Source of the DNA: Microvirga ossetica
GTDB taxonomy: Bacteria; Pseudomonadota; Alphaproteobacteria; Rhizobiales; Beijerinckiaceae
NCBI RefSeq assembly: GCF_002741015.1
Contig: NZ_CP016616.1
Location: 1,099,501 to 1,163,500, forward strand
Direction: 5' to 3'
DNA length: 64,000 nucleotides
Shown here one piece after another: positions 2,425-50,115 of this stretch (position 1 is the stretch's first letter; the number at the start of each line of letters is the position of its first letter). A program made the position numbers and the translations under genes. The notes under the pieces were generated by a model. That model did no database searches and was not told the DNA's origin. It saw nothing but the letters and a program-made list of their open reading frames with translations.

Positions 2425-3444
2425 ATGCGCAAGGATTACGAAGTGCCCCAAGGCACCGTGCACAGCCTCTGGATCGACAGCCAAAGCCTCAAGGGCAATT
2501 TCCTCGGCGACCCCTCCCGGCGCCGGGTCGACGTGTATATCCCCGCAGGGCATGACGGCCGGGACCTTCCCCTCCTCGTCGACCTCGTCGGCTACACGGC
2601 CGGCGGCCCGGCCCATACCAATTGGAAGAACTACGGCGAGAACGCGCCGGAGCGCCTCGATCGCCTGATCGGCACCGGCGCCATGCCGCCGGTCGCGGCG
2701 GCCTTTCCCGATTGCTTCACGCGCCTGGGCGGCAACCAATATGTCGACAGCGCGGCCATGGGGCCTTGGGAGACCTTCCTGATCCGCGAGATGCTGCCCT
2801 TCGTCGAGGAGCGCTTCGGCTGCGGCGGAGACGGGCGCCGGGGCGTGTTCGGCAAGAGTTCGGGCGGCTACGGCGCCATGGTCCACGCCCTCAGGCAGGG
2901 CGGCTCGGTCTGGTCGGCGGCCGCCTCCCATTCGGGCGATGTCGGCTTCGAATATCTCTATCATCTCGGCGAATTCGCCGGGGCTTTGCGCCACCTCGTC
3001 GACCACAACATGTCCATCGAGGCCTTCCTGCGCAAATTCGAGGCCGGCCCCAAGGCCAAGGACAAGGACTGGCATGTGCTGATGCTGCTTGCCCAGGCGG
3101 CGAGCTTCGATCCTGATCCGAGCCAATTCTACGGGGTTCGCCTGCCGGTGGATCTCGCAACCTGCGAGATCATCGAAGAGCGCTGGTCCAACTGGCTGCG
3201 CTGGGACCCGCTGCGCATGGTCGACCGGCTCGAGTACCAGGACAACCTGCGCAAGCTGAAGGCCTTCTACATCGATTGCGGCGATATCGACCAGTACAAC
3301 ATGGTCTACGGCTCGCGGATCATGCGCCGGAAGCTCACGGAGGCCGGCATTCCCCACACTTACGAGGAATTCCACGACGACCACTCCTCGGTCGATTACC
3401 GCATGGACATCAGCCTGCCGCTGCTCGCCAGGGCGCTGACTTAA
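2425..3444 (+). CDS. putative esterase, alpha/beta hydrolase fold
   Basis: The 339-residue protein fits the esterase family related to esterase D and antigen 85 (PF00756 type). The nucleophile elbow is FGKSSGGYGAM near residues 142-151, with Ser145 in G-x-S-x-G. Candidate acid and histidine residues lie in DCGDIDQYN and HDDHSSVDYR near the C-terminus. No signal peptide is seen, so a cytoplasmic hydrolase is likely; the substrate is unknown. Three ATGs are in frame (2413, 2419, 2425). The last has GAGG at suitable spacing, so it was chosen. The stop lies seven bases from the stop of the convergent flavoprotein gene. Confidence 0.82.
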   Translation: MRKDYEVPQGTVHSLWIDSQSLKGNFLGDPSRRRVDVYIPAGHDGRDLPLLVDLVGYTAGGPAHTNWKNYGENAPERLDRLIGTGAMPPVAAAFPDCFTRLGGNQYVDSAAMGPWETFLIREMLPFVEERFGCGGDGRRGVFGKSSGGYGAMVHALRQGGSVWSAAASHSGDVGFEYLYHLGEFAGALRHLVDHNMSIEAFLRKFEAGPKAKDKDWHVLMLLAQAASFDPDPSQFYGVRLPVDLATCEIIEERWSNWLRWDPLRMVDRLEYQDNLRKLKAFYIDCGDIDQYNMVYGSRIMRRKLTEAGIPHTYEEFHDDHSSVDYRMDISLPLLARALT

Positions 3445-31914: not shown

Positions 31915-32055
31915 AGTGGACTCAGTTTCCGGCCAATTGCTGGTTCTGATTACAGATAACGGATTCATAGCCTACCCTCGAGAGTGCTCTAACATGATCT
32001 CTCGGCGGATCCGGCTTAGTGGCTTCACGACACGCAAACAAACGCTGTGATCTCT

Positions 32056-35000
32056 ATGATAAACCTCTCGCGCGATCAACTTGATAGCCTGACCTCAACG
32101 GCGACCACCCAGTACGGCAAGCTTAATTACTTCCGGAATGATGATCCTATCGGCAAAGCACTAGAGGCATATGGCGAGTGGGCAGAAGTAGAAATAAGCT
32201 TTTTGCTGCAGTTCTTGCACCCAGATGACGTCGCTCTCGATATTGGAGCCAACATCGGCACCCATTCAATCGCTTTTGCACAACGCGTTGGCCAGAATGG
32301 AAGGGTCCATGCCTTTGAGCCACAGGGTCCAATTTTTGAAGTACTGTCAATAAATGCTGCGATTAACAATCTCACAAACATCGACGCTCGTCGCTGTGGT
32401 GCGGGCGCCGTTCGGAGCACCTTGGTCGTTCCGGCCACAGATTACATGGCACATGCCAATTTCGGAGCAGTACAACTCCTTGATGATACGTCTGCACCGG
32501 GTGAGACGGTCGACATCCTTCCAATAGATGAGTTGTGCTTAGACAGGGTCAACTTCATCAAGATTGATGCCGAGGGCATGAATCACTACGTCATTGATGG
32601 TGCTCATCAGACAATTACACGATGCTCACCCATAGTGTTTTCAGAATGTAATTCGATCGAAGAAGGGTATTTAATAATCGAGCGGATAAGGCGACATGGC
32701 TACAGATGCATCTACGTGAGCACTCCCGCGTTCAACTCCGATAACATAAAGCATCAAACTCTAAATTTCTTTGGACACGCGGAGGAGTCTGGGTTGCTGT
32801 TTCTTCCCCCTTCGTTCAATTCAACTCAAATTGAGCGAGCCGATGGCAAAGTCACAATAGCTCCGATAAACACCCTCGAGGATCTGGCAACTGCATTCAT
32901 TGCCACCCCGCGATATGGCGACGTGACTCCGTATGATCGCGATCCCAAAGGGCTTCATAATGAGAACACGCGCCTGAATGGAGAGATCACGCGCCTGAAT
33001 GGAGAGATCACGCGCCTGAATGGAGAGATCACGCGCCAACGCTTCCAGATTGTTGATGCAAATGCTCGAACAGAAGCGACCCTGTCAAAGCTGCAGGAAG
33101 CGGAGCAACATTGGCCATCTCTACATGCGCAACTGAAGAAAGAGCTAAGATCTCGCGAAGTTTTTTACAAAAGGAAACTCAAGGCTCGCGATGTGCTACT
33201 CCATTCTGTCTACAACTCGACCTCATGGAAGTTTGCACGTCCGATTCGAGGCGCTAAAAAAGCCATCGAAGCAATTAGAAGGACGACTGCAGGTTTAGTT
33301 CGGGCTCGGACGGGGTCAGGATCTTCATCTCTAGGCGCCATGACAATAGGACATGAACTGCACCCCCCGCGGAAAGCGGGAGCGACGGAGCATGCTCAAC
33401 AGAAGACGGTCAGCGCATCAGCACAACCCCTTACCCAAGGATCTACGATTGATCCAGTTGGAAGAGAAGGCAAGCACGATAAGAAGAATAAACAGGGATC
33501 TAGAACAGTAAAACAAGATGCAATCTTTGACACGAGCAGAAGGGTTACAGTTCCCGCCCCGCCTACTCTTGAGACATGGCGAAACTTGGCTGACGCACTT
33601 AAACTGCGACCGGCCCATAATCCAGCAATTGATATTATTGTCCCAGTCTACGGCCAGGCCCGCGAAACACTCAATTGCTTGGCGCACGTTTTGAGCGCAA
33701 CCCAAAAAACGGGATACGAACTTATTGTCATTGATGACTGCGGCCCCGATAAAGATTTGCCGGCGCAACTTGAGGAGTTGGCAGCTTTAGGGCTATTCAC
33801 ACTACTCAAGAACCGACAGAATCTTGGGTTCGTTGCAACGGTCAATCGCGGTATGCAACTACACCCTGATCGTGATGTTCTACTGCTCAATTCAGATACA
33901 GCGGTATATGGTGATTGGCTGGACAGAATACTTAAATCCGCCCATTCCGAGGACAAGATCGGCACAATTACACCATTGTCGAATAACGCAACGATTTGCA
34001 GCTATCCGAAATTCGTCAGCGACAATGACGACGAACTCGAACTAGATAATGCAACGCTTGATCAGATTGCTGCAGAAGTTAACGCTGGAAAATCAGTGGA
34101 GATTCCAACAGGCGTAGGTTTCTGCATGTTCATCAGTCGAGCCTGCATCGCGGAAGTTGGGCTGTTTGATGTCGAAAACTTCGGGCGTGGATACGGCGAA
34201 GAGAATGATTTCTGTCGTCGCGCCGCAAAAAGAGGTTGGCGGAACATCCTGGTAGGTGATGTTTTCGTACGTCATTACGGTGGCGCATCTTTCGGTGACA
34301 CGAAGCATGCTCGGGTTATGGAAGCGCAGAAGAAGCTTGAGAAACTGCATCCCGAGTACTTTTCTCTGGTACATCAGTTCATTAAGGATGATCCTGTACT
34401 GGAGATACGTGAGCGTCTGGACATTGAACGTCTCCGGCGGACCGCGTCGACCGGTGAAGCGATGCTTTTCATCACGCTCGGACGAGGTGGAGGCACTGAA
34501 CGACATGTACAAGAGATGAAATCTGCTCTGGAGGCAGAAGGGACACCTGTTTTCATTGCGAGATCAAACACACGTCAGCATGGTGTTCTAAGTCTCGATT
34601 CTCACGGCCTTTGCAATGTCCCAAATCTTCCAACCTTTGACGTGCCGGAGGATGTCGAAGCACTTGTGCGGGCGATAAGAGCTTTAAACATCAAGCATAT
34701 TCACGTGCAGCACTTGGCAGATGCTGGCGATGATGTCGAGCAGATGATCCGCACGGCAGCGGAAAGCGTCGGACTGAACTACGACGTAACTGTACACGAC
34801 TACATGTTTATTTGCCCACGCATTAACCTTATCGGACAGTCCGGCCTATATTGTGGAGAGCCTGAAGATGAAGGATGCAATGCATGTCTCAAGGCATTTC
34901 CGTCCATCGCTGGACATCATACGATACAGGACTGGCGAGGACGCTTCGGCGAGTTCCTTTCAGGTGCAAGAGCTGTGTTTGTTCCGAGCACAGATGTCGC

Positions 35001-35610
35001 CAAACGCTTGCGGAGATATTATCCACAAACTTCGTTCGTGGTGCGTCCTCACTTCACGGCCATGAATGAGCCTGTAAGTCACCGAAGCTCCCACCATAGT
35101 TCGCGCCGAATTGCGATCATCGGTGCGATTGGACCGCACAAAGGCGTAAGGCTCCTTCTGGAATGCGCAAAGTACGCCGCATCGCAGGGGGTACCGTTAA
35201 GCTTTGTCGTCATCGGCTATACAGCCATTGATGACGAGCTACGTACCCTTCCAAATGTCACGATTACGGGGGCCTATGGCGAGGCAGACGTTCAAAGACT
35301 CATTGCCGAGCATGCGCCTGACATAGCGTGGTTCCCTGCTGTGTGGCCTGAAACGTTCAGCTATACATTGTCAGTTGCGTTTGAAGCCGGTCTTTTCCCA
35401 GTGACTTACGATTTCGGAGCTCCAGCTGAGCGCATGAGAGCAGTAGGTTGGGGTGCCACTATGCCCCTCGAACACATGATGTCCGTGCCTGAGATGGTGC
35501 ACTTTCTACAGACCGTTTCAATAACGCCACCGCCTGAAGGTATATGGCAGGCTTCGAACGTTTCCTACGGCTCCATTCTGTCGGACTATTATCGCTTACC
35601 TCCGATCTAA
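32056..35610 (+). CDS. FkbM methyltransferase - GT2 - GT4 fusion protein
   Basis: This 1184-residue cytoplasmic protein joins three enzymes. Residues ~45-240 are an FkbM-type SAM methyltransferase (VALDIGANIGTHSIAFAQRV, VNFIKIDAEGMNHYVIDGAH). Residues ~300-385 are a coiled coil with three perfect LNGEITR repeats, then NSTSWKFARPIRGAKKAI. Residues ~520-790 are GT2 (IDIIVPVYGQARETLNCLAH, LLLNSDTAV, GYGEENDFCRRA). Residues ~808-1180 are GT4-like (LGRGGGTERHVQEMKSALEA). The set suggests coupled transfer and O-methylation of sugars. GTG at 32047 is an alternative start; neither has a good ribosome site. GC content is low compared with the window ends. Confidence 0.88.
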   Translation: MINLSRDQLDSLTSTATTQYGKLNYFRNDDPIGKALEAYGEWAEVEISFLLQFLHPDDVALDIGANIGTHSIAFAQRVGQNGRVHAFEPQGPIFEVLSINAAINNLTNIDARRCGAGAVRSTLVVPATDYMAHANFGAVQLLDDTSAPGETVDILPIDELCLDRVNFIKIDAEGMNHYVIDGAHQTITRCSPIVFSECNSIEEGYLIIERIRRHGYRCIYVSTPAFNSDNIKHQTLNFFGHAEESGLLFLPPSFNSTQIERADGKVTIAPINTLEDLATAFIATPRYGDVTPYDRDPKGLHNENTRLNGEITRLNGEITRLNGEITRQRFQIVDANARTEATLSKLQEAEQHWPSLHAQLKKELRSREVFYKRKLKARDVLLHSVYNSTSWKFARPIRGAKKAIEAIRRTTAGLVRARTGSGSSSLGAMTIGHELHPPRKAGATEHAQQKTVSASAQPLTQGSTIDPVGREGKHDKKNKQGSRTVKQDAIFDTSRRVTVPAPPTLETWRNLADALKLRPAHNPAIDIIVPVYGQARETLNCLAHVLSATQKTGYELIVIDDCGPDKDLPAQLEELAALGLFTLLKNRQNLGFVATVNRGMQLHPDRDVLLLNSDTAVYGDWLDRILKSAHSEDKIGTITPLSNNATICSYPKFVSDNDDELELDNATLDQIAAEVNAGKSVEIPTGVGFCMFISRACIAEVGLFDVENFGRGYGEENDFCRRAAKRGWRNILVGDVFVRHYGGASFGDTKHARVMEAQKKLEKLHPEYFSLVHQFIKDDPVLEIRERLDIERLRRTASTGEAMLFITLGRGGGTERHVQEMKSALEAEGTPVFIARSNTRQHGVLSLDSHGLCNVPNLPTFDVPEDVEALVRAIRALNIKHIHVQHLADAGDDVEQMIRTAAESVGLNYDVTVHDYMFICPRINLIGQSGLYCGEPEDEGCNACLKAFPSIAGHHTIQDWRGRFGEFLSGARAVFVPSTDVAKRLRRYYPQTSFVVRPHFTAMNEPVSHRSSHHSSRRIAIIGAIGPHKGVRLLLECAKYAASQGVPLSFVVIGYTAIDDELRTLPNVTITGAYGEADVQRLIAEHAPDIAWFPAVWPETFSYTLSVAFEAGLFPVTYDFGAPAERMRAVGWGATMPLEHMMSVPEMVHFLQTVSITPPPEGIWQASNVSYGSILSDYYRLPPI
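32970..33032 (+). repeat. three perfect 21-bp tandem repeats in the coiled coil
   Basis: The unit gcgcctgaatggagagatca plus one base occurs three times without change, encoding three heptads. A whole unit changes the protein by seven residues without shifting the frame, so length could vary by slippage. Confidence 0.95.
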
Positions 35611-35716: not shown

Positions 35717-35818
35717 TAGAGCACCGGACGCTTGATTGGCCGCATGTCCTGCGGCCTTGAGGCAGTTCCAGCATTCCTGAGGCTCGAAGCGGTTGCAAAT
35801 GTCACGTAAGCGGTGTTC
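35717..35818 (-). pseudogene. relic of an IS630-family transposase 3' end
   Basis: On the minus strand this reads [20 protein letters not shown], matching [20 protein letters not shown] at the end of the IS630 transposase at 45119. The flank TAGAGCA plus CGGACG also matches. The rest was cut off where a different IS630 element inserted at 35819. Confidence 0.8.
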
Positions 35819-36897
35819 TAGTGGATGGAATCTAACGCTTGGTGCCCACGCCTGACGGCGGCGATGATTTCATCTGGATCAGCCGTCCACGTGAAGGGCT
35901 TGGGACTGGCGTTCGTCTCGGCAACGTACCGGTTGATGGCCGTCTGAAGGTCAACCACCGAATAGAAGACGCCGCGCTTGAGCCGCTGGCGGGTCAGCTT
36001 AGCGAAGAAGCCCTCAACCGCATTGAGCCACGAGCATGAGGTCGGGGTGAAGTGGAAGGTGAAGCGCTCGTGGCGATCCAACCAGGCTCGAACCTTCGGG
36101 TGCTTGTGGGCAGCGTAGTTGTCGAGGATCACGTGCACGGCCTTGCCGGGTGGCACTTGGGCTTCAATGGCATTGAGAAAGCGGATGAATTCCTGATGCC
36201 GGTGGCGCTGCATGTTGCGCCCGATGACGGAGCCATCCAGCACGTTCAGAGCGGCAAAGAGCGTAGTGGTGCCGTTGCGTTTGTAGTCGTGCGTCATGGT
36301 CCCCAGCCGGCCCTTCTTCAGCGGCAGGCCGGGCTGGGTGCGGTCGAGCGCCTGGATCTGGCTCTTCTCATCAACCGAGAGAACAATGGCATGAGCGGGT
36401 GGATCGACGTAGAGCCCGACCACGTCGCGGAGCTTCTCGGCGAATTTGGGGTCGTTGGAGAGCTTGAACTGGCGATAGCGGTGCGGCTGGAGACCATGCG
36501 CTCGCCAGATGCGCCGGACGGCGCTGGCGCTGATGCCAGTCTCCTTGGCCATCATAGCAGCGGTCCAGTGCGTTGCCTCGGCCAGTGGGTCGGCCAATGT
36601 CAGGGTGACCACCCGCTCGGCGATGTCAGGCCCGAGCGGCTTGATCCGGGAGGGGCGCGTCTTGTCGCGCAGCAGGCCGTCGACGCCTTCCTGCATGAAG
36701 CGCTCCTGCCAGCGCCACACGCAAGTTTTGGAGGTGCCGGTCCGACGCATGATCTCAGCGGTGCCGACGCCATCGGCGCTCAGCACCACGATGGCAGCCC
36801 GCCAGACGTGTTTCTGGGCCGTGTTCCGGTTGCTGGTCAGCGCCTCAAGGCGATGTCGGTCCGAGGACGTCAGGGTGATCGAGATGCCAGTGCGCAT
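35818..36897 (-). CDS. IS630-family transposase
   Basis: The 359-residue protein has an N-terminal HTH region (GVGTAEIMRRTGTSKTCVWR) and a DDE domain: IVLSVDEKSQIQALDRTQPG (first Asp), AVHVILDNYAAHKHPKVRAW (second Asp), and SWLNAVEGFFAKLTRQRLKR (Glu). No frameshift, so it may be active. The ATG at 36897 is preferred; the frame is open to 36912. The stop lies at the left end of the element. Confidence 0.92.
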   Translation of the reverse strand: MRTGISITLTSSDRHRLEALTSNRNTAQKHVWRAAIVVLSADGVGTAEIMRRTGTSKTCVWRWQERFMQEGVDGLLRDKTRPSRIKPLGPDIAERVVTLTLADPLAEATHWTAAMMAKETGISASAVRRIWRAHGLQPHRYRQFKLSNDPKFAEKLRDVVGLYVDPPAHAIVLSVDEKSQIQALDRTQPGLPLKKGRLGTMTHDYKRNGTTTLFAALNVLDGSVIGRNMQRHRHQEFIRFLNAIEAQVPPGKAVHVILDNYAAHKHPKVRAWLDRHERFTFHFTPTSCSWLNAVEGFFAKLTRQRLKRGVFYSVVDLQTAINRYVAETNASPKPFTWTADPDEIIAAVRRGHQALDSIH

Positions 36898-36967
36898 GCC
36901 ACAGCCTCGCATGCACCCCGGCTAAGGGGAATCCTTCAAACGGACTCTTTTGTTAGGCGGAAACCAC
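35821..36967 (-). mobile_element. IS630-family insertion sequence with TA target duplication
   Basis: The element is flanked by TA at 35819-35820 and 36968-36969, as expected of IS630/Tc1-mariner elements. Its ends match as inverted repeats (CTAGTGG, seven variable bases, CTAAC, counting the target). It holds one transposase gene and sits inside the relic at 35717. Confidence 0.85.
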
Positions 36968-37013: not shown

Positions 37014-37528
37014 GTAAGCACTCGGCGTGCGCCCTCTTGTGAGACCGCTGTTTGCACGTGACGTTCTGACCTTAAGGCTCGCTTTAAGGTCAGCAGATCA
37101 ATGAAGATCGAAGTTCTCGGCACAGAGCGCCGGCGGCGCTGGAGCCTCCAGGACAAACTCCAGATCGTGGACGAGACGCTGCAGCCGGGCGTGACGGTGA
37201 CCGAAGTGGCCCGCCGCCATGGGCTCGCGGCCAGTGTCGTCTTCACCTGGCGCCGGCTGGCTCGCGAAGGACGGCTCGGCGACGCTGGTCCCGCCTTCGT
37301 GCCGGTCGAGATCACGCCCGTCCCAAGGCAGACCACGCCGATAGCATCCCCAGCGCGGCGTACCGGCCTGATCGAGATCGTCCTGGGCCGCGGGCGCCGC
37401 ATTCGCGTGGATCGCGAGGTCGATGCCGAGGCGCTGCGGCGGGTGCTGCAGGTGGTGGAGAGCCTGCCATGATCCCGGTCCCGAGCGGCGTGCGCGTGTG
37501 GCTGGCCACCGGCCACACCGATATGCGT
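37014..37528 (+). mobile_element. left IS66 fragment (tnpA and first 20 codons of tnpB)
   Basis: It begins with the IS66-type end GTAAGCACTCGGCGTGCGCC and runs through tnpA into tnpB. The tnpB start overlaps the tnpA stop (ATGA at 37469) and reads MIPVPSGVRVWLATGHTDMR. It then stops exactly where the RIT terminal repeat starts. The rest of tnpB and all of tnpC are missing. Confidence 0.85.
37101..37472 (+). CDS. tnpA: IS66 family accessory protein TnpA
   Basis: The 123-residue protein has the TnpA helix-turn-helix pattern (WSLQDKLQIVDETLQPGVTV, then EVARRHGLAASVVFTWRRL). The C-terminus, IEIVLGRGRRIRVDREVDAE, is typical. TnpA is needed for IS66 transposition but is not the catalytic subunit. 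It is whole here, but tnpB and tnpC are lost. Confidence 0.88.
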   Translation: MKIEVLGTERRRRWSLQDKLQIVDETLQPGVTVTEVARRHGLAASVVFTWRRLAREGRLGDAGPAFVPVEITPVPRQTTPIASPARRTGLIEIVLGRGRRIRVDREVDAEALRRVLQVVESLP

Positions 37529-37567
37529 AATTATGTGGAGTGCCGGATTATGCGGAGTCCGCAGCGG
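37529..37567 (+). repeat. RIT left terminal inverted repeat (39 bp)
   Basis: Perfect inverted match to 40950-40988. The first base follows codon 20 of the left IS66 tnpB. Confidence 0.95.
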
Positions 37568-37681
37568 TCCGAGCGACTTCGCCCTTTTTATCCAATAGCT
37601 TAGACCGCTCAAGAGCCTTCCCCACTTGGCATAATTGTTGTCGTCTCCCGACGTTCTTTTGACCTCGAGAGGAGAGCCCAC

Positions 37682-38997
37682 GTGCCAAAATCGACGGAAG
37701 GTTTGCCGGAATGCGCGCAACTGATGAACCCAGGTGCCTTGCGGCCGTTCGTGGAGGCGTTCACGGGCCGATTGCTAGGTCTGGGTTACACCCGCCTGAC
37801 CGTGTCAGGCTACGAAGCCTCGGCTCGTCACTTCGGACAATGGCTGCAGAACAAGAAGATCGCCGTCGCTGAGATTGACCACAGGATCGTTCGCGGGTTT
37901 GCGCGGCATCGATGCCGTTGCCCTGGCATCCGGCAGACCACTCGACTGTCGGTCAAATACGTCAACCGCGCTCTCCGGTTCGTTGGCTTCCTGGCGGAAT
38001 GCGGGGCGGTGAAACTGTCGGAACGGGTGCCGCCGTGTCCCGACCAGGACGAGATCCTTGCGTTCCAGGCCTGGCTGAGACGGCATCGCGGAATCTCGGA
38101 GCGCACCGTCTGGCGCCACGGTCGTATGATCATGCGCCTGCTTCCTGCTCTGGGCCCCGATCCCATGCAGTACGACGCTGCTCTCGTCCGGCAGGTGATC
38201 CTGGACGAGGGAAAGCTAAGTTCGCACGCCTACCTCAAGACTATGACGATGGCGTTGAGGGGCTACCTTCGATATCTGGCTGCCCACGGCTTGTGCCATC
38301 CGGGGCTTGATCAGGCTATACCGACAATCCCGCAATGGCGGCTGTCAGCGTTGCCGCGCTTCATCCCCATTGCGGACGTCGAGCGTGTCATTGCGTCGTG
38401 TGACGTCACGACGCCGATGGGCATCCTCGACCGCGCGGTGCTTCTGCTGCTGGCCCGTCTCGGCCTGCGCGCCGGCGAGATCTCGGGCATGCGCCTTGAC
38501 GATGCCCTGGAATGGATGATCACGATCCTCTGGAATCGGTGATCACGATCGTCTGGAACGCGCACCTTGACGACATCGACTGGAGAGAAGGTACCCTGCG
38601 TGTCCGCGGCAAAGGCCGTCGTGAGATCCGGCTTCCGCTCCCACAGGACGCGGGCGACGCGATCATCGCCTATCTCCGGGTTGCCCGGCCGCTCGCGGCC
38701 TGTGAGCAGGTTTTCCTGCGGACCATTGCACCGCATCGGCCGTTGGCGAGCGCGAGCGTCTCGAGCATCGTCAGTCTTGCCCTTGAGAGGGCCGGCATTG
38801 ATGACCCGCCGTCCCGAGGGACCAATCTGATTCGGCACTCCGCAGCGACCGGCCTGCTGCGTGCCGGCGCCACGCTGGACACGATCGGGACCGTGCTTCG
38901 CCACCGATCGATCGACACCACCGCCCATTATGCGAAGGTGGACGTCAATATGTTGCTCCAGATCGCTCAAGCCTGGCCCGGGAGCGTGTCATGCTGA
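37682..38997 (+). pseudogene. RIT recombinase A, frameshifted
   Basis: A GTG start at 37682 with GAGGAG upstream opens a tyrosine recombinase. The core-binding domain (residues ~15-180) runs to RLGLRAGEISGMRLDD, which holds the first catalytic Arg. A 71-bp insertion (38503-38573) then shifts the frame and gives a stop at 38542. The reading resumes at DDIDWREGTLRVRGKGRREI and ends NLIRHSAATGLLR, VLRHRSIDTTAHYAKVD and a stop at 38997. The catalytic Tyr is present, but the usual His before the second Arg is Asn. The stop overlaps the ritB start by 7 bp. Confidence 0.85.
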
Positions 38998-39905
38998 GCC
39001 TGGATCTCGCCCGCTATGCGGAACTGCAGCATCATTTGGGCTTCAAGTTCCGCGTCCAGCACACGCTGCTCAAGAGCTTTGTTGCCTTCGCTCAGAGCCA
39101 TGGCGATCGGTATGTTCAAACGGCGCGCGTGCTCGAATGGGCGACGCTCGCCCCTTCCCCGCAGCAGCGTCGCAATCGCTTGCTGACGGTCCGCCGCTTT
39201 GCCCTGGCGCTGTCGGCCGAGGATCGGTGCCATGAGGTCCCGCCCGCTGATGCCCTGGGCCGCAGCCTGCTCGAGCGGCGGATTCCGCACATCTATACAG
39301 CCGACGAGATCACCACGCTGATGCGAGCAGCGGCCAGCCTCAAGCCCTCAGGCTCGATCAGGCCGCTGCTGTACGAGACCCTGTTCGGCCTGCTTGCCGC
39401 CACCGGCATCCGCGTTTCCGAAGCCCTCGCTCTCCGCCTTGATGACCTGACGGCCGATGGGCTGGTCATCCGACAAACCAAGTTCCAAAAGAGCCGCTTG
39501 CTGCTGCTCCACGCCACCACATGGGAAGCCCTGGACCGGTATGTGTCGGCGCGCCAGAGGCTGGGGACCTTGAACCACGCCCTGTTCGTTTCGAATACTG
39601 GCACGCCGCCGTCCTATCCCACGGTGATTGCCATCTTCCTCCGCCTTACCCGATCAACCGGCCTGAGAGGGCAGCCTGGTCAGCCGGGGCCGCGTATTCA
39701 CGATCTGCGGCACACCTTCGCCGTCCGCTCTTTGGAGCAATGCCGGCCTGATCGCGACGCCGTCGGCCGCCATATCGTTGCGCTCAGCACCTACCTCGGT
39801 CACGCCCATGTCACCGAGACCTATTGGTACTTGCAGGCAACGCCAATCCTCATGGGGCAGATTGCATCCGCCGGTGAGGCCTTGCACCAGGGAGCCGTCG
39901 CATGA
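38991..39905 (+). CDS. RIT recombinase B (tyrosine recombinase)
   Basis: The 304-residue protein has the catalytic pattern ATGIRVSEALALRLDDL (Arg I), IHDLRHTFAVRSL (His and Arg II), YLGHAHVTETYWYLQ (His and Tyr). All key residues are kept. It overlaps ritA by 7 bp (ATGCTGA) and ritC by 4 bp (ATGA), so the three are translationally coupled. It is the only member of the trio that looks intact. Confidence 0.9.
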   Translation: MLSLDLARYAELQHHLGFKFRVQHTLLKSFVAFAQSHGDRYVQTARVLEWATLAPSPQQRRNRLLTVRRFALALSAEDRCHEVPPADALGRSLLERRIPHIYTADEITTLMRAAASLKPSGSIRPLLYETLFGLLAATGIRVSEALALRLDDLTADGLVIRQTKFQKSRLLLLHATTWEALDRYVSARQRLGTLNHALFVSNTGTPPSYPTVIAIFLRLTRSTGLRGQPGQPGPRIHDLRHTFAVRSLEQCRPDRDAVGRHIVALSTYLGHAHVTETYWYLQATPILMGQIASAGEALHQGAVA

Positions 39906-40915
39906 CCGTGCTGGCTCCCCATCTCGCCATCTTTCTGCAAGAACATCTCCCCCATGAGCGGCGGGCAAGCCCGCACACGTGTGAGGCCTACGCCTACAGC
40001 TTTCGGCTGCTGTTGTGCTTCGCGGCTACCCGATTGAGGACCACGCCATCCCGCATCGCGATCGAGCAGCTCGATCCGCCGCTCGTCCTCGCCTTCCTCG
40101 AGCATATCGAGAAGGCACGCGGCAACTCGGCGCGCACCCGCAACGCCCGCCTTGCCGCGATCCACTCGTTCTTCCGCTTCCTCGAATACCGGCTCCCGTC
40201 CTGTCTGGACCAGGCACGCCGGGTCCGAGCAATCCCGATGAAGAAGGCCGACGAGGCGCTCGTCAGCCATCTCACGCGCGCGGAGATGCAGGCTCTGCTT
40301 GATGTGCCGGACCCGCGTCAGGTCTCCGGCATCCGGGACCGGGCGATGCTCTACCTGGCCTTCGCCGCAGGCCTGCGCGTCTCCGAACTCGTCAGCCTCC
40401 GCATCGATCAGATCGACCGCCAAACGGTCGCCAGCATCCACGTCATGGGCAAAGGACGCCGCGAGCGCGTGCTGCCCCTCTGGAAGGAGACAACGGCGGC
40501 GCTGAAGGCTTGGCTGGCGGCTCGTCCGGCGAGCGGCGATGAAGAGCTCTTCCTCAATGCCACAGGACGGGCGATGACCAGGTCTGGCTTCGAATATATC
40601 CTCGCCAAGCACGTGGCCACTGCAGCGCAGAAGTTGCCCTCGATCGCCGACAAGCGCGTCACCCCGCATGTTCTGCACCACACCTGCGCCATGCATACCC
40701 TGCAGGCGACCCGCGACATTCGCAAAGTGTCGCTCTGGCTTGGTCACGCCAGTCTACAGAGCACGGAGATCAATCTGCGAGCTGATCCGACCGAAAAGCT
40801 TGAGGCGCTTGCCGCGATGGCGCCGCTGTCGCTCAAGCCGGGTCGCTTCCGCGCTCCCGACAAGCTGCTGGCGATGCTGAAGTCCATCGGCCAATCGACA
40901 AATTATGTCGAGTGA
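39902..40915 (+). CDS. RIT recombinase C, catalytic residues replaced
   Basis: The 337-residue reading frame is complete: SAM-like N-terminal domain (HTCEAYAYSFRLLLCFAA), catalytic domain with AAGLRVSELVSLRIDQI (Arg I) and MGKGRRERVLPLW (Lys). The block that is normally HxLRHT reads HVLHHTCAMHTL, so Arg II is His. The block that should hold the nucleophile reads STEINLRADPTEKL, with Asn at the expected Tyr position. It should therefore bind but not cut DNA. It ends 35 bp before the right terminal repeat. Confidence 0.88.
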   Translation: MTVLAPHLAIFLQEHLPHERRASPHTCEAYAYSFRLLLCFAATRLRTTPSRIAIEQLDPPLVLAFLEHIEKARGNSARTRNARLAAIHSFFRFLEYRLPSCLDQARRVRAIPMKKADEALVSHLTRAEMQALLDVPDPRQVSGIRDRAMLYLAFAAGLRVSELVSLRIDQIDRQTVASIHVMGKGRRERVLPLWKETTAALKAWLAARPASGDEELFLNATGRAMTRSGFEYILAKHVATAAQKLPSIADKRVTPHVLHHTCAMHTLQATRDIRKVSLWLGHASLQSTEINLRADPTEKLEALAAMAPLSLKPGRFRAPDKLLAMLKSIGQSTNYVE

Positions 40916-40949
40916 TTGCTACATAAACACCGCAGTCGGCAAGCGATTG

Positions 40950-40988
40950 CCGCTGCGGACTCCGCATAATCCGGCACTCCACATAATT
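40950..40988 (-). repeat. RIT right terminal inverted repeat (39 bp)
   Basis: Perfect inverted match to 37529-37567. The outermost base abuts codon 20 of the right IS66 tnpB. Confidence 0.95.
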
Positions 40989-41524
40989 GCGGAAGTCGAC
41001 GGGCTTGGTCGCCACCAGGACGCGGACAGTCCCGCTCGGTCCGATCATCGCAGGCTCTTGAGCGCATGCAGCACGAGGGCCAATGTCGCTCCATCGGCTC
41101 CGGACGGGACGCGAATGACGGCGCCCTCCACGACAATCTCGATTACCGCCTCCCGGCAGGCTGCCGGGGTGGGCTGCGGCACGTCAGGGGCGACAACAAC
41201 CGGGGTAAAGCCCAGCGGAGAATCGTCCGCCTCGCACTTGGCCTGACGACGCCAGGTGAACAGGTGCTGGGGCGACATGCCGTTGCGGCGGGCCACGCCA
41301 GACACCACCGCGCCCGGCGCCATGGCCTCCTCCAGGATCCGCGCCTTCTCATCGGCTGACCAGCGCCGGCGTCCGCGAGCCCCAGTGATCACTTCCAGGC
41401 GCCGCACCGCTCGGGGCGGCTCAAGCATATGGTCAACCATCGACACAAAACGATCCCCAATCAGAGATCGTCAGTCTCGCTGCTCAGACATGCGAATGTA
41501 AGGTGCGGCGAGAACACCGCTTAC
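40989..41524 (-). mobile_element. right IS66 fragment (tnpA and first 20 codons of tnpB)
   Basis: It runs on the minus strand from an IS66-type end (GTAAGCGGTGTTCTCGCCGC, read from 41524) through tnpA into tnpB. tnpB (start 41048, overlapping the tnpA stop as ATGA) reads MIGPSGTVRVLVATKPVDFR and stops at the RIT repeat. It is a different IS66 member from the left fragment. Confidence 0.85.
41045..41446 (-). CDS. tnpA: IS66 family accessory protein TnpA
   Basis: The 133-residue protein has RRRWSADEKARILEEAMAPG, then VARRNGMSPQHLFTWRRQAK and IEIVVEGAVIRVPSGADGAT, the standard TnpA blocks. It is clearly diverged from the TnpA at 37101, so the two IS66 fragments come from different elements. Confidence 0.88.
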   Translation of the reverse strand: MSMVDHMLEPPRAVRRLEVITGARGRRRWSADEKARILEEAMAPGAVVSGVARRNGMSPQHLFTWRRQAKCEADDSPLGFTPVVVAPDVPQPTPAACREAVIEIVVEGAVIRVPSGADGATLALVLHALKSLR

Positions 41525-41604: not shown

Positions 41605-42651
41605 TCACGCTTCCTGATCTGCAGAGGGATTCGCATGTCCCGCTAAGAGAGTTGCATGGGCCTGATCAGAACGCCTTGAATGTAGTGTGTTGGAAAGGTT
41701 GGGATGTATGGCCTCCCTGGGAACGGAGGACACATCGTATGAAAGCGCCGCAAGAAGCAACTGCACCCCGATGATGATTGGCAACGCGGATATCATGACC
41801 GCGCCAGCTGTCGCTACATCGCCTTGGGCGCTTTCAGTGACCCACTTATAAAGTCCAAAGACGGTACCAAATGAGATCAGCAATATTGAGCTGAGCAATT
41901 CCAACGAGGCGACGTTGAAGTCGCGAAGATAGTAATTGTAGCCGATTCTTTTGGCCATGTTCTTGAGATGGCCAAGCATGAATGGTCCGATGATTTTGCT
42001 TATCTTAAGCCCGCTTTCCTCATCGGCGTACTTTGCCAGCATCGGAATGTCGACGACTTTTGCCCGAATGATGTTCAAACGGAAAAGCATGTCACTTTCG
42101 AAAAAGTATCGCTCATGCAACCTGTCGAGATTCATGATTCTCAACACTCTTGCACTAATTGCAGTATACCCGTTTGTCGGATCGAATATGTCCCAATAAC
42201 CGCACGACAGCTTCGTCATAAAAGAAAGAATAGCGTTTCCGAAAACACGAACTTTCGGCATCTGCTCCAGGAACTCAGGGCTATAGAAGCGATTACCTTT
42301 TGTATAGTCGGCGAGACCGTGGACGATAGGATCAGCAAACTGGCCCAGCAGAACAGGATCCATTTGGCCGTCACCATCAATTTTGATGACGACATCCAAG
42401 TCCATTTCAATTGCTTCGCGGTAGCCTCGGATCATTGCGCCACCGACACCCCGATTTCGCTCGTTCCGGATCACTTTGATACGAGGGTCTGAGCAATGTG
42501 CTGCGATGAAGTCTCCGGAGCCTTCCGGACAGGCATCATCGACGCACAGGATGGCATCTACCTCCGGCCCTATGCGACTGATCACACCTTTGATATGGCG
42601 CGTCACCTTATAGCAAGGGATGACAACTCCGACTCTGACGCCACCGATCAA
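41605..42651 (-). CDS. GT2 glycosyltransferase with C-terminal membrane helices (GtrB/DPM-like)
   Basis: The protein of about 348 residues has VGVVIPCYKVTRHIKGVISR, ILCVDDACPEGS, VVIKIDGDGQMDP (DxD) and a C-terminal pair of membrane helices (LELLSSILLISFGTVFGLYK; MISALPIIIGVQLLLAAL). This is the layout of polyprenyl-phosphate sugar transferases such as GtrB and ArnC. It should load a sugar onto undecaprenyl phosphate at the inner face of the membrane. A TTG start at 42651 overlaps the TGA of the upstream methyltransferase (TTGA) and fits the family length. An ATG at 42768 would need a 120-bp overlap. Confidence 0.85.
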   Translation of the reverse strand: MIGGVRVGVVIPCYKVTRHIKGVISRIGPEVDAILCVDDACPEGSGDFIAAHCSDPRIKVIRNERNRGVGGAMIRGYREAIEMDLDVVIKIDGDGQMDPVLLGQFADPIVHGLADYTKGNRFYSPEFLEQMPKVRVFGNAILSFMTKLSCGYWDIFDPTNGYTAISARVLRIMNLDRLHERYFFESDMLFRLNIIRAKVVDIPMLAKYADEESGLKISKIIGPFMLGHLKNMAKRIGYNYYLRDFNVASLELLSSILLISFGTVFGLYKWVTESAQGDVATAGAVMISALPIIIGVQLLLAALSYDVSSVPREAIHPNLSNTLHSRRSDQAHATLLAGHANPSADQEA

Positions 42652-43511
42652 TTCGAAACTCCGTGAAGTCCGCTTTTCTTGAATGCAAAGTATTGAATAT
42701 CTGACGCCGTAACGCGTCCAACTAGTCTCATGACGTGTGCAGCTCCATAGATCCCTAATGCCTTCCACGTGCTGACATTTTTGTCATATCGAATACGCGC
42801 ATATAACCCCTCGGTGGCGATGGCATTAAGATTTCCCTGCTTCACCAACGTGAAACCAACACTCTCCATAAGCATGCGCAACGTGCGTGCCGAAAAGTAA
42901 CTTAGGTGTGGCGATGGCAAGCCCTTCTGCCACATGCGCTCGAGCGGGCCACTCAATCCAAGCTTCGCTGCGATGCGGGTCGATCGAAACACCATTCCGT
43001 CTGAAACAGGAAGGTTGATCAGAGCCAAACCGTCAGGCTTGAGGCGGGCATGGACGGCTTGTGCCATACCTTCGACATCGGGCAAATGTTCAAATACGTC
43101 ATTAAATGTGATTGCATCATATTGTTCGCCGACAGGAAGCGCATCCGGGAAAAACCCGACAATAGCTGAATGACCTGCCGAATGGGCCTTTTGGGCCATC
43201 TCGCGATCAGGTTCAATGCCGCTCGCCTCGTAGCCCCGCTTCTTCGCTGCCTCCAAAAACCACCCATGGGCGCACCCAACGTCGAGGATGTGCGCAGCCA
43301 GCGGCAGGAGCGGGCCGCACTCGTCCAGAAGCTGCTTGAAATTCGCCGTCCGGATCGGCTTTAGGGCCTGCTCCCGTGCCGATTCATCGATCCTTTGAAT
43401 CTCATTGATCTGAACACGGAATGTGCTTTTGAAGAAGCCACATGACGGACAGCAAAAAGTATCCGGGAGCACGTCCATTTCCAACGTGGCGGAACAGATG
43501 TCACACTTCAT
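42648..43511 (-). CDS. class I SAM methyltransferase with zinc-ribbon N-terminus
   Basis: This 287-residue protein starts with a four-cysteine ribbon (CDICSATL ... FCCPSCGF). A Rossmann methyltransferase domain follows (HILDVGCAHGWFLEAAKKRG, ITFNDVFEHLPDVEGMAQAV, LALINLPVSDG). This architecture is common among sugar methyltransferases of surface-polysaccharide loci. ATG at 43511, or a GTG three codons earlier at 43520. It is coupled to the GT2 downstream and divergent from the flippase-like gene at 43576. Confidence 0.85.
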   Translation of the reverse strand: MKCDICSATLEMDVLPDTFCCPSCGFFKSTFRVQINEIQRIDESAREQALKPIRTANFKQLLDECGPLLPLAAHILDVGCAHGWFLEAAKKRGYEASGIEPDREMAQKAHSAGHSAIVGFFPDALPVGEQYDAITFNDVFEHLPDVEGMAQAVHARLKPDGLALINLPVSDGMVFRSTRIAAKLGLSGPLERMWQKGLPSPHLSYFSARTLRMLMESVGFTLVKQGNLNAIATEGLYARIRYDKNVSTWKALGIYGAAHVMRLVGRVTASDIQYFAFKKSGLHGVSN

Positions 43512-43575
43512 AAATTTCACACTTGTGTGTATGGGCCGTTATCCCTTAACTGAGCCAAATTATTGCTTAAGGCCC

Positions 43576-49749: not shown

Positions 49750-50115
49750 GAGGGGATGGGCAGCCCGTGACTAATTTCGTCTTGCCATTGGCCAGCACCG
49801 GCGTGTCGTCGTCATGCAGCCGCCCGGCCACCAGGCCAGGGATTGCGCAAGTCGACGCCCCTCTAGGAGGTGACTCAGCTACGCGGTCGTGATGGAGACC
49901 GGCCATCCGCCTGAGCGTCTCCTGCACGAGCAACGATAACGCGCCGAGCCTTTGCGCATATCGGTGTGGCCGGTGGCCAGCCACACGCGCACGCCGGTGA
50001 GTACCGGGATCATGCCGAGCTCTCCACGACCTGTAAAACCCGCCGCAGCGCCTCTGCATCGACAACGCGGATAACTCGCACGACTCAGCGACTTCCCATG
50101 AGGATCTCGATCATG
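49750..50115 (-). pseudogene. IS66 relic (tnpA end, tnpB start, tnpC scrap)
   Basis: Minus-strand reading gives VVDAEALRRVLQVVES (TnpA end, ~50085-50035). MIPVLTGVRVWLATGHTDMR, then KG, is the TnpB start near 50015. GRLHDDDTPVLANGKTK (~49830-49780) is a piece of TnpC. The parts are fused by deletions. Here tnpB runs straight through codon 20, unlike the two copies next to the RIT element. The relic lies between DUF2142 and rfbA, where other sugar genes may have been lost. Confidence 0.75.

Follow-up and report, generated by a model that had tools for sequence, protein, structure and literature searches.

Sequence comparison makes it very probable that one subfamily of RIT (recombinase-in-trio) elements integrates at a single site in the tnpB gene of IS66, that it moves as a circle which carries a palindrome, and that the copy studied here is a fossil in which two tnpB 5′ parts were brought together by recombination. 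The copy lies in a 64,000-nt stretch of DNA (the window), and it was compared with related loci, designated by L numbers. The codon-exact target, the near-constant anatomy of spacers and palindrome (6-20-6) and the apparent travelling of the palindrome bear on how RITs move and why they have three recombinases.

The window element and its decay

The features of the element and its surroundings were determined mainly by direct reading of the sequence and were as follows:

37014–37530, plus strand: 5′ half of IS66 copy A, with the left terminal repeat (GTAAGC..., from 37014), tnpA (37101–37472) and 20 tnpB codons (60 bases, 37469–37528, MIPVPSGVRVWLATGHTDMR)
37525–37530, plus strand: 6-bp spacer GCGTAA (Arg codon plus AA) between tnpB-A and the RIT arm, with length and register taken from homologues
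37529–37567, plus strand: left 39-bp perfect terminal inverted repeat (AATTATGTGGAGTGCCGGATTATGCGGAGTCCGCAGCGG), with two direct TTATGnGGAG repeats, from sequence self-match
37531–40986, plus strand: RIT proper, 3,456 bp, with arms TTATGTGGAG...CTCCACATAA, from sequence and 91% identity to the RITs of L005 and L036
37682–38997, plus strand: ritA, in two overlapping frames (37682–38542 and 38512–38997) with tyrosine-recombinase domains
38494–38564, plus strand: 71-bp insertion in ritA, containing diverged copies of TGATCACGATCnTCTGGAA, absent from L005 and L036
38991–39905, plus strand: ritB, tyrosine recombinase, 304 aa (PF00589)
39902–40915, plus strand: ritC, tyrosine recombinase, 337 aa (PF00589)
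40950–40988, minus strand: right 39-bp perfect terminal inverted repeat, from sequence self-match
40987–40992, minus strand: 6-bp spacer CCGCAA (toward the RIT) between tnpB-B and the RIT arm, from coordinates
40987–41524, minus strand: 5′ half of IS66 copy B, with the terminal repeat GTAAGC (41524, GCTTAC on the plus strand), tnpA (41446–41045) and 20 tnpB codons (60 bases, 41048–40989, MIGPSGTVRVLVATKPVDFR)
49940–50013, minus strand: IS66 tnpB relic with an unoccupied site (...GHTDMRKG), read by eye

These data agree with the initial annotation in that the inverted ends are perfect over 39 bp, that tnpB starts of two different IS66 members adjoin them in opposite orientations, and that tnpB of the relic runs on uninterrupted as DMRKG. 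As the Lys codon is cut behind its second base, the AA that opens the 39-bp repeat is tnpB spacer and lies outside the RIT. Both TnpA proteins scored above the NCBIfam cut-off for IS66 TnpA, NF047595 (118 bits for copy A and 96 bits for copy B), and both copies have the GTAAGC terminal repeats of IS66. The 20-residue TnpB pieces of the window are too short for a profile search; the restored TnpB of the sister locus L006 matches PF05717 (8.9e-18).

Profile search found PF00589 in three consecutive genes, in ritA in its second frame, and these genes overlap by 7 bp (ritA/ritB) and 4 bp (ritB/ritC). A trio of overlapping recombinase genes, inverted repeats of about 28–39 bp and a total length of about 3.4–3.5 kb, as in RIT elements, are thus all present. 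On the other hand, the catalytic R-H-Y, which belongs to all three recombinases, is not kept throughout. The 71-bp insertion disrupts ritA, and the alignment showed that in RitC the catalytic Tyr is changed to Asn (residue 291) and a motif Arg to His (residue 259). Since Tyr and Arg are kept in all eight other RitC rows of the alignment, the window RIT is, as judged from its sequence, a degenerate member of the RIT elements, and with RitA and RitC inactivated this copy would be a fossil. The window copy is also devoid of the 20-bp palindrome that normally stands at one RIT end, and the TTATG form of this palindrome was not found in the window's own genome. Neither the brokenness of the RIT nor the missing palindrome had been mentioned in the initial annotation.

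The target site in IS66 tnpB

The normal unit reads tnpB 5′-s1 (6 bp)-RIT-s2 (6 bp)-palindrome (20 bp)-s3 (6 bp)-tnpB 3′. When the RIT flanks of 55 related loci were searched by script for tnpB starts, a start cut at the Asp-Met/Phe-Arg↓Lys site (the arrow marks the cut) was found on at least one side in 40 of them. One of these calls is apparently spurious; the one for L067 was made only from a terminal DFR, and the one for L053 from 18 bases ahead of a contig end. Some of the 55 loci are the same or nearly the same as others (L006/L037, L018/L038, L015/L020 and L016/L019, the last pair being from a single strain). The recurrence of these junctions in many other loci bears out the earlier view that they are hard to explain by chance. 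The cut after codon 20, as originally described, holds for the window, while IS66 members whose TnpB is shorter at the N-terminus have the homologous D[MF]R↓K site at codon 18. Most readable related loci have the RIT within a single IS66 and a tnpB start beside only one of its ends. In 22 of the 55 loci one RIT end adjoined a tnpB start and the other a palindrome, with the ritA side on tnpB 5′ in 11 and the ritC side in 11 (10:10 in 20 loci after removal of duplicates). The 5′/5′ form was seen in five of the 55 (the window, L012, L046, L050 and L066), and the palindrome/palindrome form in one (L064).

The cut is shared by distantly related hosts, as the median TnpB identity over 19 loci sharing it was 43%. 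RITs that are 98–99.9% identical were found in IS66 whose TnpB were 36–48% identical over the first 56 residues (L007/L008, L007/L011, L008/L011 and L015/L017). The first TnpB identities (30–41%) were too low for some pairs, as a result of a frame shift upstream in L010 and downstream in L015, and of a second RIT in L007; in the revised values L010 was omitted and the first 56 residues were used, with L007 and L036 still affected. The comparison of RIT and TnpB pairs omits L037 and L020 (duplicates), L053, L054 and L064 (incomplete or double palindrome), L028 (irregular spacer) and L065.

Deletion of the RIT together with 6+20+6 bp restored the tnpB frame as ...R↓KG or ...R↓KA in all 22 tnpB loci with both halves (including the duplicate pairs L006/L037 and L015/L020), and in 17 of the 22 the restored frame stayed open for at least 93 aa past the junction. 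The joined flanks were read in the fixed tnpB frame, since the longest frame proved misleading in GC-rich DNA. In 5 of the 22 loci, reading on from tnpB directly into the RIT also gave a frame open for more than 100 aa, so openness is weak by itself and the evidence is the TnpB-like sequence.

Empty copies, which had been proposed earlier as a check, were found for both IS66 types of the window, with neither RIT nor palindrome at the site. A 91.5% identical copy of all 517 bases of IS66-A, with the site uninterrupted, is on contig C2 of the same genome, while uninterrupted relatives of IS66-B, 86–90% identical over the whole 538 bases, are in three other genomes. Contig C2 also holds two identical RITs (3370/3371 nt), which have a common s2 and lie in different IS66 tnpB genes. 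The same cut at a median TnpB identity of 43%, the two orientations, the empty copies and the restored frames strongly support the suggestion that RIT recombinases recognize a conserved tnpB sequence, and the homologues show that the insertion is site-specific.

The palindrome and other RIT subfamilies

The palindrome was on the tnpB 3′ side in all readable cases, whichever way the RIT points, and past it the flank was the 3′ part of tnpB in 26 of 26 labelled tnpB loci, the spacer of L028 being irregular. With few exceptions, each of the three spacers is a form of an Arg codon followed by AA. Since a scan with fixed arm motifs missed diverged subfamilies, a self-consistent search was used instead. 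A script with the spacer fixed at 6 bp, and with 20 bp and arm similarity favored, placed a palindrome 6 bp off a RIT end in 51 of 116 loci from all subfamilies; it found none in the other 65, many of which are contig-cut, rearranged or too diverged for it. A free search gave 43 of 116, in which symmetric spacers extend the palindrome, so that its boundary may be ambiguous. In 1.12 Mb there are 66 perfect 20-bp palindromes, of which 38 adjoin a RIT in this way. Symmetry was perfect in 38 of the 51 loci despite varying arm sequences, and the palindrome arms matched the RIT outer arms at 6–9 of 10 positions in 48 of the 51, similarity being favored by the script. In six loci a foreign IS91-like end occupies the place where the palindrome is expected. 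The possibility that the palindrome is a normal part of IS66 was ruled out, as the intact IS66 copies examined do not contain it and its TTATG form, as noted above, does not occur in the window's own genome.

Spacers were tabulated for 24 loci (omitting L037, L020 and L028). In 10 of these s1, s2 and s3 are the same, and hence these loci do not probe a carry-over of s2. In eight others s2 is unlike both s1 and s3 and is still a variant of Arg codon plus AA; one of the eight (L064) is the double-palindrome locus without a true s1.

The 6-20-6 anatomy was also observed in RIT subfamilies located in IstB, IS91, Tn3 and rve transposases, DUF736 and plasmid helicases. The RitC tree comprises the 68 loci that could be labelled, which was done by eye, and has a suspiciously long L144/L145 branch. 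On it 10 changes account for all 11 target labels, which is the minimum possible. The RITs at tnpB site 1 do not form a single clade, as helicase- and Tn3-targeting RITs are nested among them. In L069 (67% RitC identity) the palindrome is present and the target is other than the tnpB site; the identity of the target was not recovered from the flanks of L069, L072, L074, L079, L085, L098 and L155. A palindrome search of 397 genomes of the order gave matches in six genomes, at six loci, five of which (L021, L022 and L024–L026) adjoin RIT-like ends, while L023 is apparently unrelated. Pfam confirmed DUF736 for the three loci submitted (L021, L022 and L026).

A model of RIT movement and comparison with known systems

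The presence of the palindrome at one side of the insertion suggests how a RIT moves. The tyrosine recombinases of the subfamily would integrate the RIT within the Lys codon of Asp-Met/Phe-Arg↓Lys, after its second base. The moving form would be a circle, RIT-s2-palindrome-s, in which the palindrome may supply the second half-site on both its sides and so create two equivalent crossover sites of the Xer/dif type, each with a 6-bp spacer between 10-bp arms. Crossover of either site with the 6-bp tnpB spacer would insert the RIT either way round, with the palindrome always downstream, and s2 would be carried over from the previous host gene, like the coupling sequence of Tn916. The best explanation of the 5′/5′ hybrid of the window is that two IS66 copies of different types, A and B, each loaded with a RIT, recombined to yield A5′-RIT-B5′ with loss of both tnpB 3′ halves and their palindromes; they could have recombined homologously within the RIT body or site-specifically at one RIT end. 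Since the partner halves of the hybrid were not found, this is a step that we infer.

Several other explanations were weighed. The initial annotation had considered that IS66 halves travel as the outer ends of the element, so that a 4.5-kb composite ending in GTAAGC...GCTTAC would be moved whole by an IS66 transposase. This is very unlikely, even though an IS66 left end stands at each outer end, the two being inverted to each other, and such 5′/5′ loci recur. IS66 duplicates 8 bp of its target, and no such duplication was found at the outer ends (CCTGAAGC versus GATCGGCC). The unit occurs once in the window's genome, with no second copy where one had been proposed to be sought, and no full-length match was found among the best two candidates from each of 297 other genomes of the family. 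Moreover, the IS66 pieces of the five 5′/5′ loci all differ, and most readable relatives, as described above, carry tnpB 5′ on one side only; mobility of the whole unit was rejected on the missing duplication and second copy. Common descent, with the RIT as an old passenger of one IS66 lineage and the constant junction inherited, would fit the 3 of 11 pairs with RITs at least 97% identical in which TnpB is 81–97% identical (L005/L006, L059/L060 and L017/L047). It is highly improbable, however, given the near-identical RITs in opposite orientations in the diverged TnpB pairs and the intact, RIT- and palindrome-free copies of both window IS66 types. An assembly artefact or chance resemblance is scarcely credible; repeats of this kind are able to mislead assemblers, but these junctions recur across many independent assemblies, among them plasmid records labelled complete, and 5′/5′ forms occur at five different loci.

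The resemblance of the palindrome to two RIT outer arms placed back to back could also mean that it is what remains, after decay, of a RIT-like element inserted earlier at the site, left by tandem insertion and loss of the interior, and lies outside the moving unit. Remnants would be expected to differ in length and decay, whereas the palindrome is almost constant at 20 bp and mostly perfectly symmetric in spite of its varying arms, and it is found in subfamilies with other target genes and missing from the intact targets examined, which makes this origin unlikely. It is plausible, although less favored, that the window hybrid formed when the RIT recombinases joined one RIT end to another tnpB that was empty. 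The dif-like look of the RIT-palindrome junctions and the existence of both 5′/5′ and palindrome/palindrome forms are consistent with it; on the other hand, homologous recombination between 3.4-kb repeats yields the same products with no special activity, and RitA and RitC of the window are now broken. The data fit both routes, and the joining of two RIT-loaded copies is the preferred origin of the hybrid.

As a tentative generalization, the RIT family might be a guild of site-specific hyperparasites, in which every clade of recombinases keeps to a single codon-level site in one gene of another transposon or plasmid, the circles carry a 20-bp palindromic docking sequence that gives two equivalent crossover sites, and three recombinases serve three half-sites (target, RIT arm and palindrome arm). 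The proposed targets of the guild are IS66 tnpB (two sites), IS21 istB, probably istA, IS91, Tn3, rve transposases, DUF736 and helicases. A layer of parasitism among mobile elements is suggested, as a RIT interrupts its own host IS, and RIT-RIT recombination, by joining unrelated IS copies, may give rise to rearrangements in large replicons. The 6-20-6 anatomy also allows RIT elements and empty sites to be delimited automatically.

Among solved structures RitC is closest by sequence to XerD (1a0p). The dif site recognized by Xer consists of a 10-bp arm, a 6-bp spacer and a 10-bp arm, and the RIT-palindrome junction has the same layout; unlike Xer/dif, which serves chromosome resolution, a RIT is a mobile element that encodes three recombinases. 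Conjugative transposons of the Tn916 type carry a 6-bp coupling sequence with the circle and leave it at one junction. A RIT spacer brought from the old site would be similar, while the RIT target is fixed at codon level and the element apparently takes the 20-bp palindrome with it as well. Strand-biased circularizing elements (SEs), GInts and Tn554 also combine several tyrosine recombinases with site-specific targets, and the circle of an SE includes 6 bp from the left flank, but these elements have different gene sets and the relevant passages describe no palindrome partner (PMC10214605, PMC5385486).

RIT elements have been known since about 2009 (reference in PMC10214605), and a table in the same paper seems to list their target specificity, empty site and movement as not tested. 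Their mobility was still to be demonstrated according to a 2012 paper, which reported no convincing recombination sites (PMC3414803). In the literature passages covered, no description of a RIT target site or palindrome unit was found, although Ricker 2013 may hold one. The RITs of Cupriavidus metallidurans CH34, one of which was reported to inactivate an IS66 gene, and of C. necator pHG1 are like the window element in having three adjacent overlapping tyrosine-recombinase genes, a length of about 3.5 kb and terminal inverted repeats (PMC2864759, PMC3414803). The end of the pHG1 RIT resembles the loci described here, as a 20-bp palindrome with 6-bp inverted spacers joins it to an annotated IS66 transposase gene. 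The relevant passages of these accounts treat insertions singly and give no convincing binding sites beyond the inverted repeat and an overlapping palindrome (PMC2864759, PMC3414803), while those passages mention neither the precise site in tnpB nor the 6-20-6 unit, the rule of orientation or the pattern of targets by clade.

The RIT element and its IS66 flanks

The recombinase-in-trio (RIT) element lies between the 5' halves of two IS66 elements, a left-hand one (IS66-A) and a right-hand, inverted one of a different type (IS66-B).

Features of the RIT element in the window
37531-40986: RIT element proper, three overlapping tyrosine-recombinase genes
37529-37567 and 40950-40988: perfect 39-bp inverted ends
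left of the RIT, GTAAGC end at 37014: IS66-A 5' half, with tnpA and 20 codons of tnpB
right of the RIT, outer end at 41524: IS66-B 5' half, inverted

The genes, the inverted ends and the two unlike tnpB pieces (MIPVPSG... versus MIGPSG...) bear out the initial annotation, which had described a RIT flanked by two IS66 tnpB starts. The window (G000:C1:1099501-1163500, on contig C1 of its genome, G000) holds the single copy of this RIT in that genome. In comparison with the Microvirga RITs L005 and L036, its ritA is split by a 71-bp insertion, while its RitC has Asn in place of the catalytic Tyr and His in place of the motif Arg; these replacements are unique to the window in the RitC alignment, and both residues are retained in all 8 other rows. 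Because ritA is split and the RitC Tyr and Arg are lost, this copy, judged by its sequence, should not move by itself. Microvirga sp. VF16 and Sinorhizobium kummerowiae carry copies that look complete.

The ritA insertion (38494-38564) carries diverged repeats (TGATCACGATCnTCTGGAA) and resembles the terminus, or a footprint, of another IS. A gene for a DDE transposase with helix-turn-helix domains (PF13358), which we take to be IS630-like, adjoins the IS66-A end at 35818-36912, and glycosyltransferase- and methyltransferase-like genes, named by look from the ORF list, flank the element at 32047-35610 and 41605-43520.

The search for IS66 copies with an empty site, which had been proposed as a check, was successful for both halves. 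A copy of IS66-A on contig C2 of the same genome aligns along all 517 bases at 91.5% identity and reads uninterrupted through the site (DMRKGFGG), and copies of IS66-B in other genomes (L166-L168) are 86-90% identical over all 538 bases, with an uninterrupted DFRKGADG or DFRKGAEG. In each case the likeness to the window ends at the RIT.

tnpB as a target and the anatomy of the insertion

RIT relatives were drawn from plasmid and genome collections, and the ends of 55 loci of the clade (the window, L005-L020, L027-L029, L036-L069 and L146) were classified by script; the set includes the duplicates L006/L037, L018/L038 and L015/L020, and L016/L019 come from one strain. Since the script assigns each end as either palindrome or tnpB start, these labels are mutually exclusive by construction in the following counts: a tnpB start at one end and a palindrome at the other in 22 loci, a tnpB start at both ends in 5, a palindrome at both in 1, a tnpB start with an IS91-like end in 6, a tnpB start with the other end unrecognised in 7, and no tnpB start called in 14. 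The last group consists of 8 loci without a readable end and 6 in which one end has a palindrome; of these 6, the tnpB start of L010 is displaced by one base, and L069 has another target. At least one end was thus called as a tnpB start in 40 of the 55 loci, although L067 is probably spurious and L053 rests on 18 bases. This recurrence agrees with the earlier suggestion that RIT recombinases recognise a conserved tnpB sequence, and on such sequence comparisons the D[MF]R|K site (site 1) is a real RIT target. The tnpB junction was also visible by eye in L042, L044 and L065. In a separate reading, the flank past the palindrome was the 3' part of tnpB in all 26 labelled loci, with an irregular spacer in L028.

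An IS91-like element end (CTAAAAACGCTCT) replaces the spacer and palindrome at the RIT end in L013, L016, L019, L039 and L041-L044. In L016, an IS91-type transposase and a tyrosine integrase (Pfam) separate the RIT from the palindrome and tnpB 3' part.

In every readable case the tnpB-3' side consists of 6 bp, a 20-bp palindrome (TTATGCGGAGCTCCGCATAA, TTATGTGGTGCACCACATAA and others), 6 bp and the remainder of tnpB. All 22 tnpB loci that retain both halves, two pairs of duplicates among them, regain a TnpB frame reading ...R|KG or ...R|KA once the RIT and this 6-20-6 segment are removed from the sequence. The restored frame is open for at least 93 aa past the junction in 17 of the 22, one of which, L007, enters a second RIT; upstream of the junction, L008 contains a stop and L010 is frame-shifted. 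In 5 of these 22 loci the frame that reads directly into the RIT, left unjoined, likewise stays open beyond 100 aa, so the evidence is the TnpB-like sequence and not the openness. A free palindrome search was positive in 43 of 116 loci, and one with the spacer fixed at 6 in 51 of 116 (38 perfect 20-mers, 12 with one mismatched pair, 1 irregular). The 1.12 Mb of sequence from these loci contains 66 perfect 20-bp palindromes, 38 of them RIT-associated.

The three 6-bp spacers (s1 between tnpB start and RIT, s2 between RIT and palindrome, s3 before the tnpB 3' part) all have the form N-Arg codon-AA in 22 of 24 tnpB loci. They are identical in 10 of the 24, s1 differs from s3 in 13, and s2 is unlike both others in 8, including L064, which has no true s1. 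A foreign yet Arg-codon-like s2 is what would be expected if part of a former tnpB site had been carried along.

Inheritance of the RIT with one IS66 lineage was considered as an alternative source of the shared junction. Among 11 RIT pairs at least 97% identical, 3 reside in similar IS66 (TnpB 81-97%), while the other 8 gave TnpB identities of 30-41% in a first comparison, 3 of these values being affected by the shifted upstream frame of L010. For five clean and near-clean pairs, TnpB identity over the first 56 residues (RIT identity in brackets) was 36% for L007/L008 (99.8%), 41% for L007/L011 (98.4%), 48% for L008/L011 (98.4%), 40% for L015/L017 (99.9%) and 42% for L015/L047 (97.3%), the L007 values being depressed by the second RIT farther along its tnpB. 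Median TnpB identity was 43% over 19 loci, and RIT orientation was split 10:10 in 20 loci. Near-identical RITs in divergent TnpB hosts, in both orientations, exclude inheritance with a single lineage.

A second tnpB site and other target genes

A second tnpB site, after ...NPA or ...DPH and before SG, is occupied by a pair of RITs from another subfamily that agree at 3370 of 3371 positions.

RITs at the second tnpB site in the window's genome
L144, G000:C2:119000-129500: RIT inside IS66 tnpB
L145, G000:C2:211000-221500: RIT inside a different IS66 tnpB

They share s2 (CCGTTC) despite their different hosts, and their palindrome is ATATGTGGCGCGCCACATAT; the IS66-A copy intact at site 1 hosts one of them. 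The same kind of arm is found at this site in L036, and a similar one in L007, in the 3' part of the split tnpB after CCGCAT/CCGTTC (arms TTATGTGTCGTGGGAGATTATGTGG, TTATGCGTCGAGCGAGATTATGTGG). Both RIT sites of one tnpB thus look occupied in these loci, which suggests that a single tnpB can carry both insertions.

The RIT-6-20-6 anatomy, read from restored frames, is one that recurs with other target genes.

Targets in restored frames
IstB: L082, L089
IS91 transposase: L091, L105
Tn3 transposase: L106
rve transposase: L099
strawberry-notch helicase: L031
SNF2-type helicase: L070

L077 has a Mu-type C-terminal domain (3' side alone scanned), and its target is probably IstA; DUF736 is the target adjoining L021, L022 and L026. 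In pHG1, the point where a RIT end meets an annotated IS66 transposase gene has a palindrome of 20 bp and inverted spacers of 6 bp. On a RitC tree with 68 labelled rows, the 11 target labels need 10 changes, the minimum possible, compared with a mean of 22.7 for shuffled labels (0 of 200 as low as 10), with the caveats that labels were assigned by eye, near-copies favour clustering and the length of one branch is suspicious. Site 1 of tnpB, IS91, the strawberry-notch group and one IstB group take two changes each, since the helicase and Tn3 groups branch from among the tnpB rows.

Proposed movement and comparison with known systems

The moving form may be a circle, RIT-6-palindrome-6, in which the palindrome would create two identical crossover sites; such a circle would explain why the RIT can lie in either orientation and why the palindrome keeps to one side. 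The form with a tnpB start at both ends is present in the window and in L012, L046, L050 and L066, and is the form expected from recombination between two RIT-loaded IS66 copies, which would also yield a palindrome/palindrome form. L064 has a palindrome at both RIT ends; together with L104 it is the counterpart of these hybrids. Among 7 places recovered by a tnpB profile search of the window's genome, none was a tnpB 3' half starting at site 1, hence the other product appears to have been lost there. Around position 5000 of L033, a palindrome and tnpB 3' half are joined not to a RIT but to sequence that looks IS110-like, with spacers TTCCTA/TAGGAA; this junction is possibly a reciprocal product.

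Earlier papers describe an IS66 gene inactivated by a CH34 RIT (PMC2864759), RITs of about 3.5 kb with variable ends, lacking convincing sites besides the inverted repeat and overlapping palindrome (PMC3414803), and extra domains in RitA and RitC (PMC8138268); a table in PMC10214605 appears to enter target specificity, empty site and movement of RIT as 'not tested'. No published target rule or 6-20-6 unit was found in a literature search of incomplete coverage, so that, as far as searched, the element is of a known kind and its target rule and anatomy are newly described. The arm-6 bp-arm layout resembles Xer/dif sites, and the solved structure closest to RitC by sequence is XerD.
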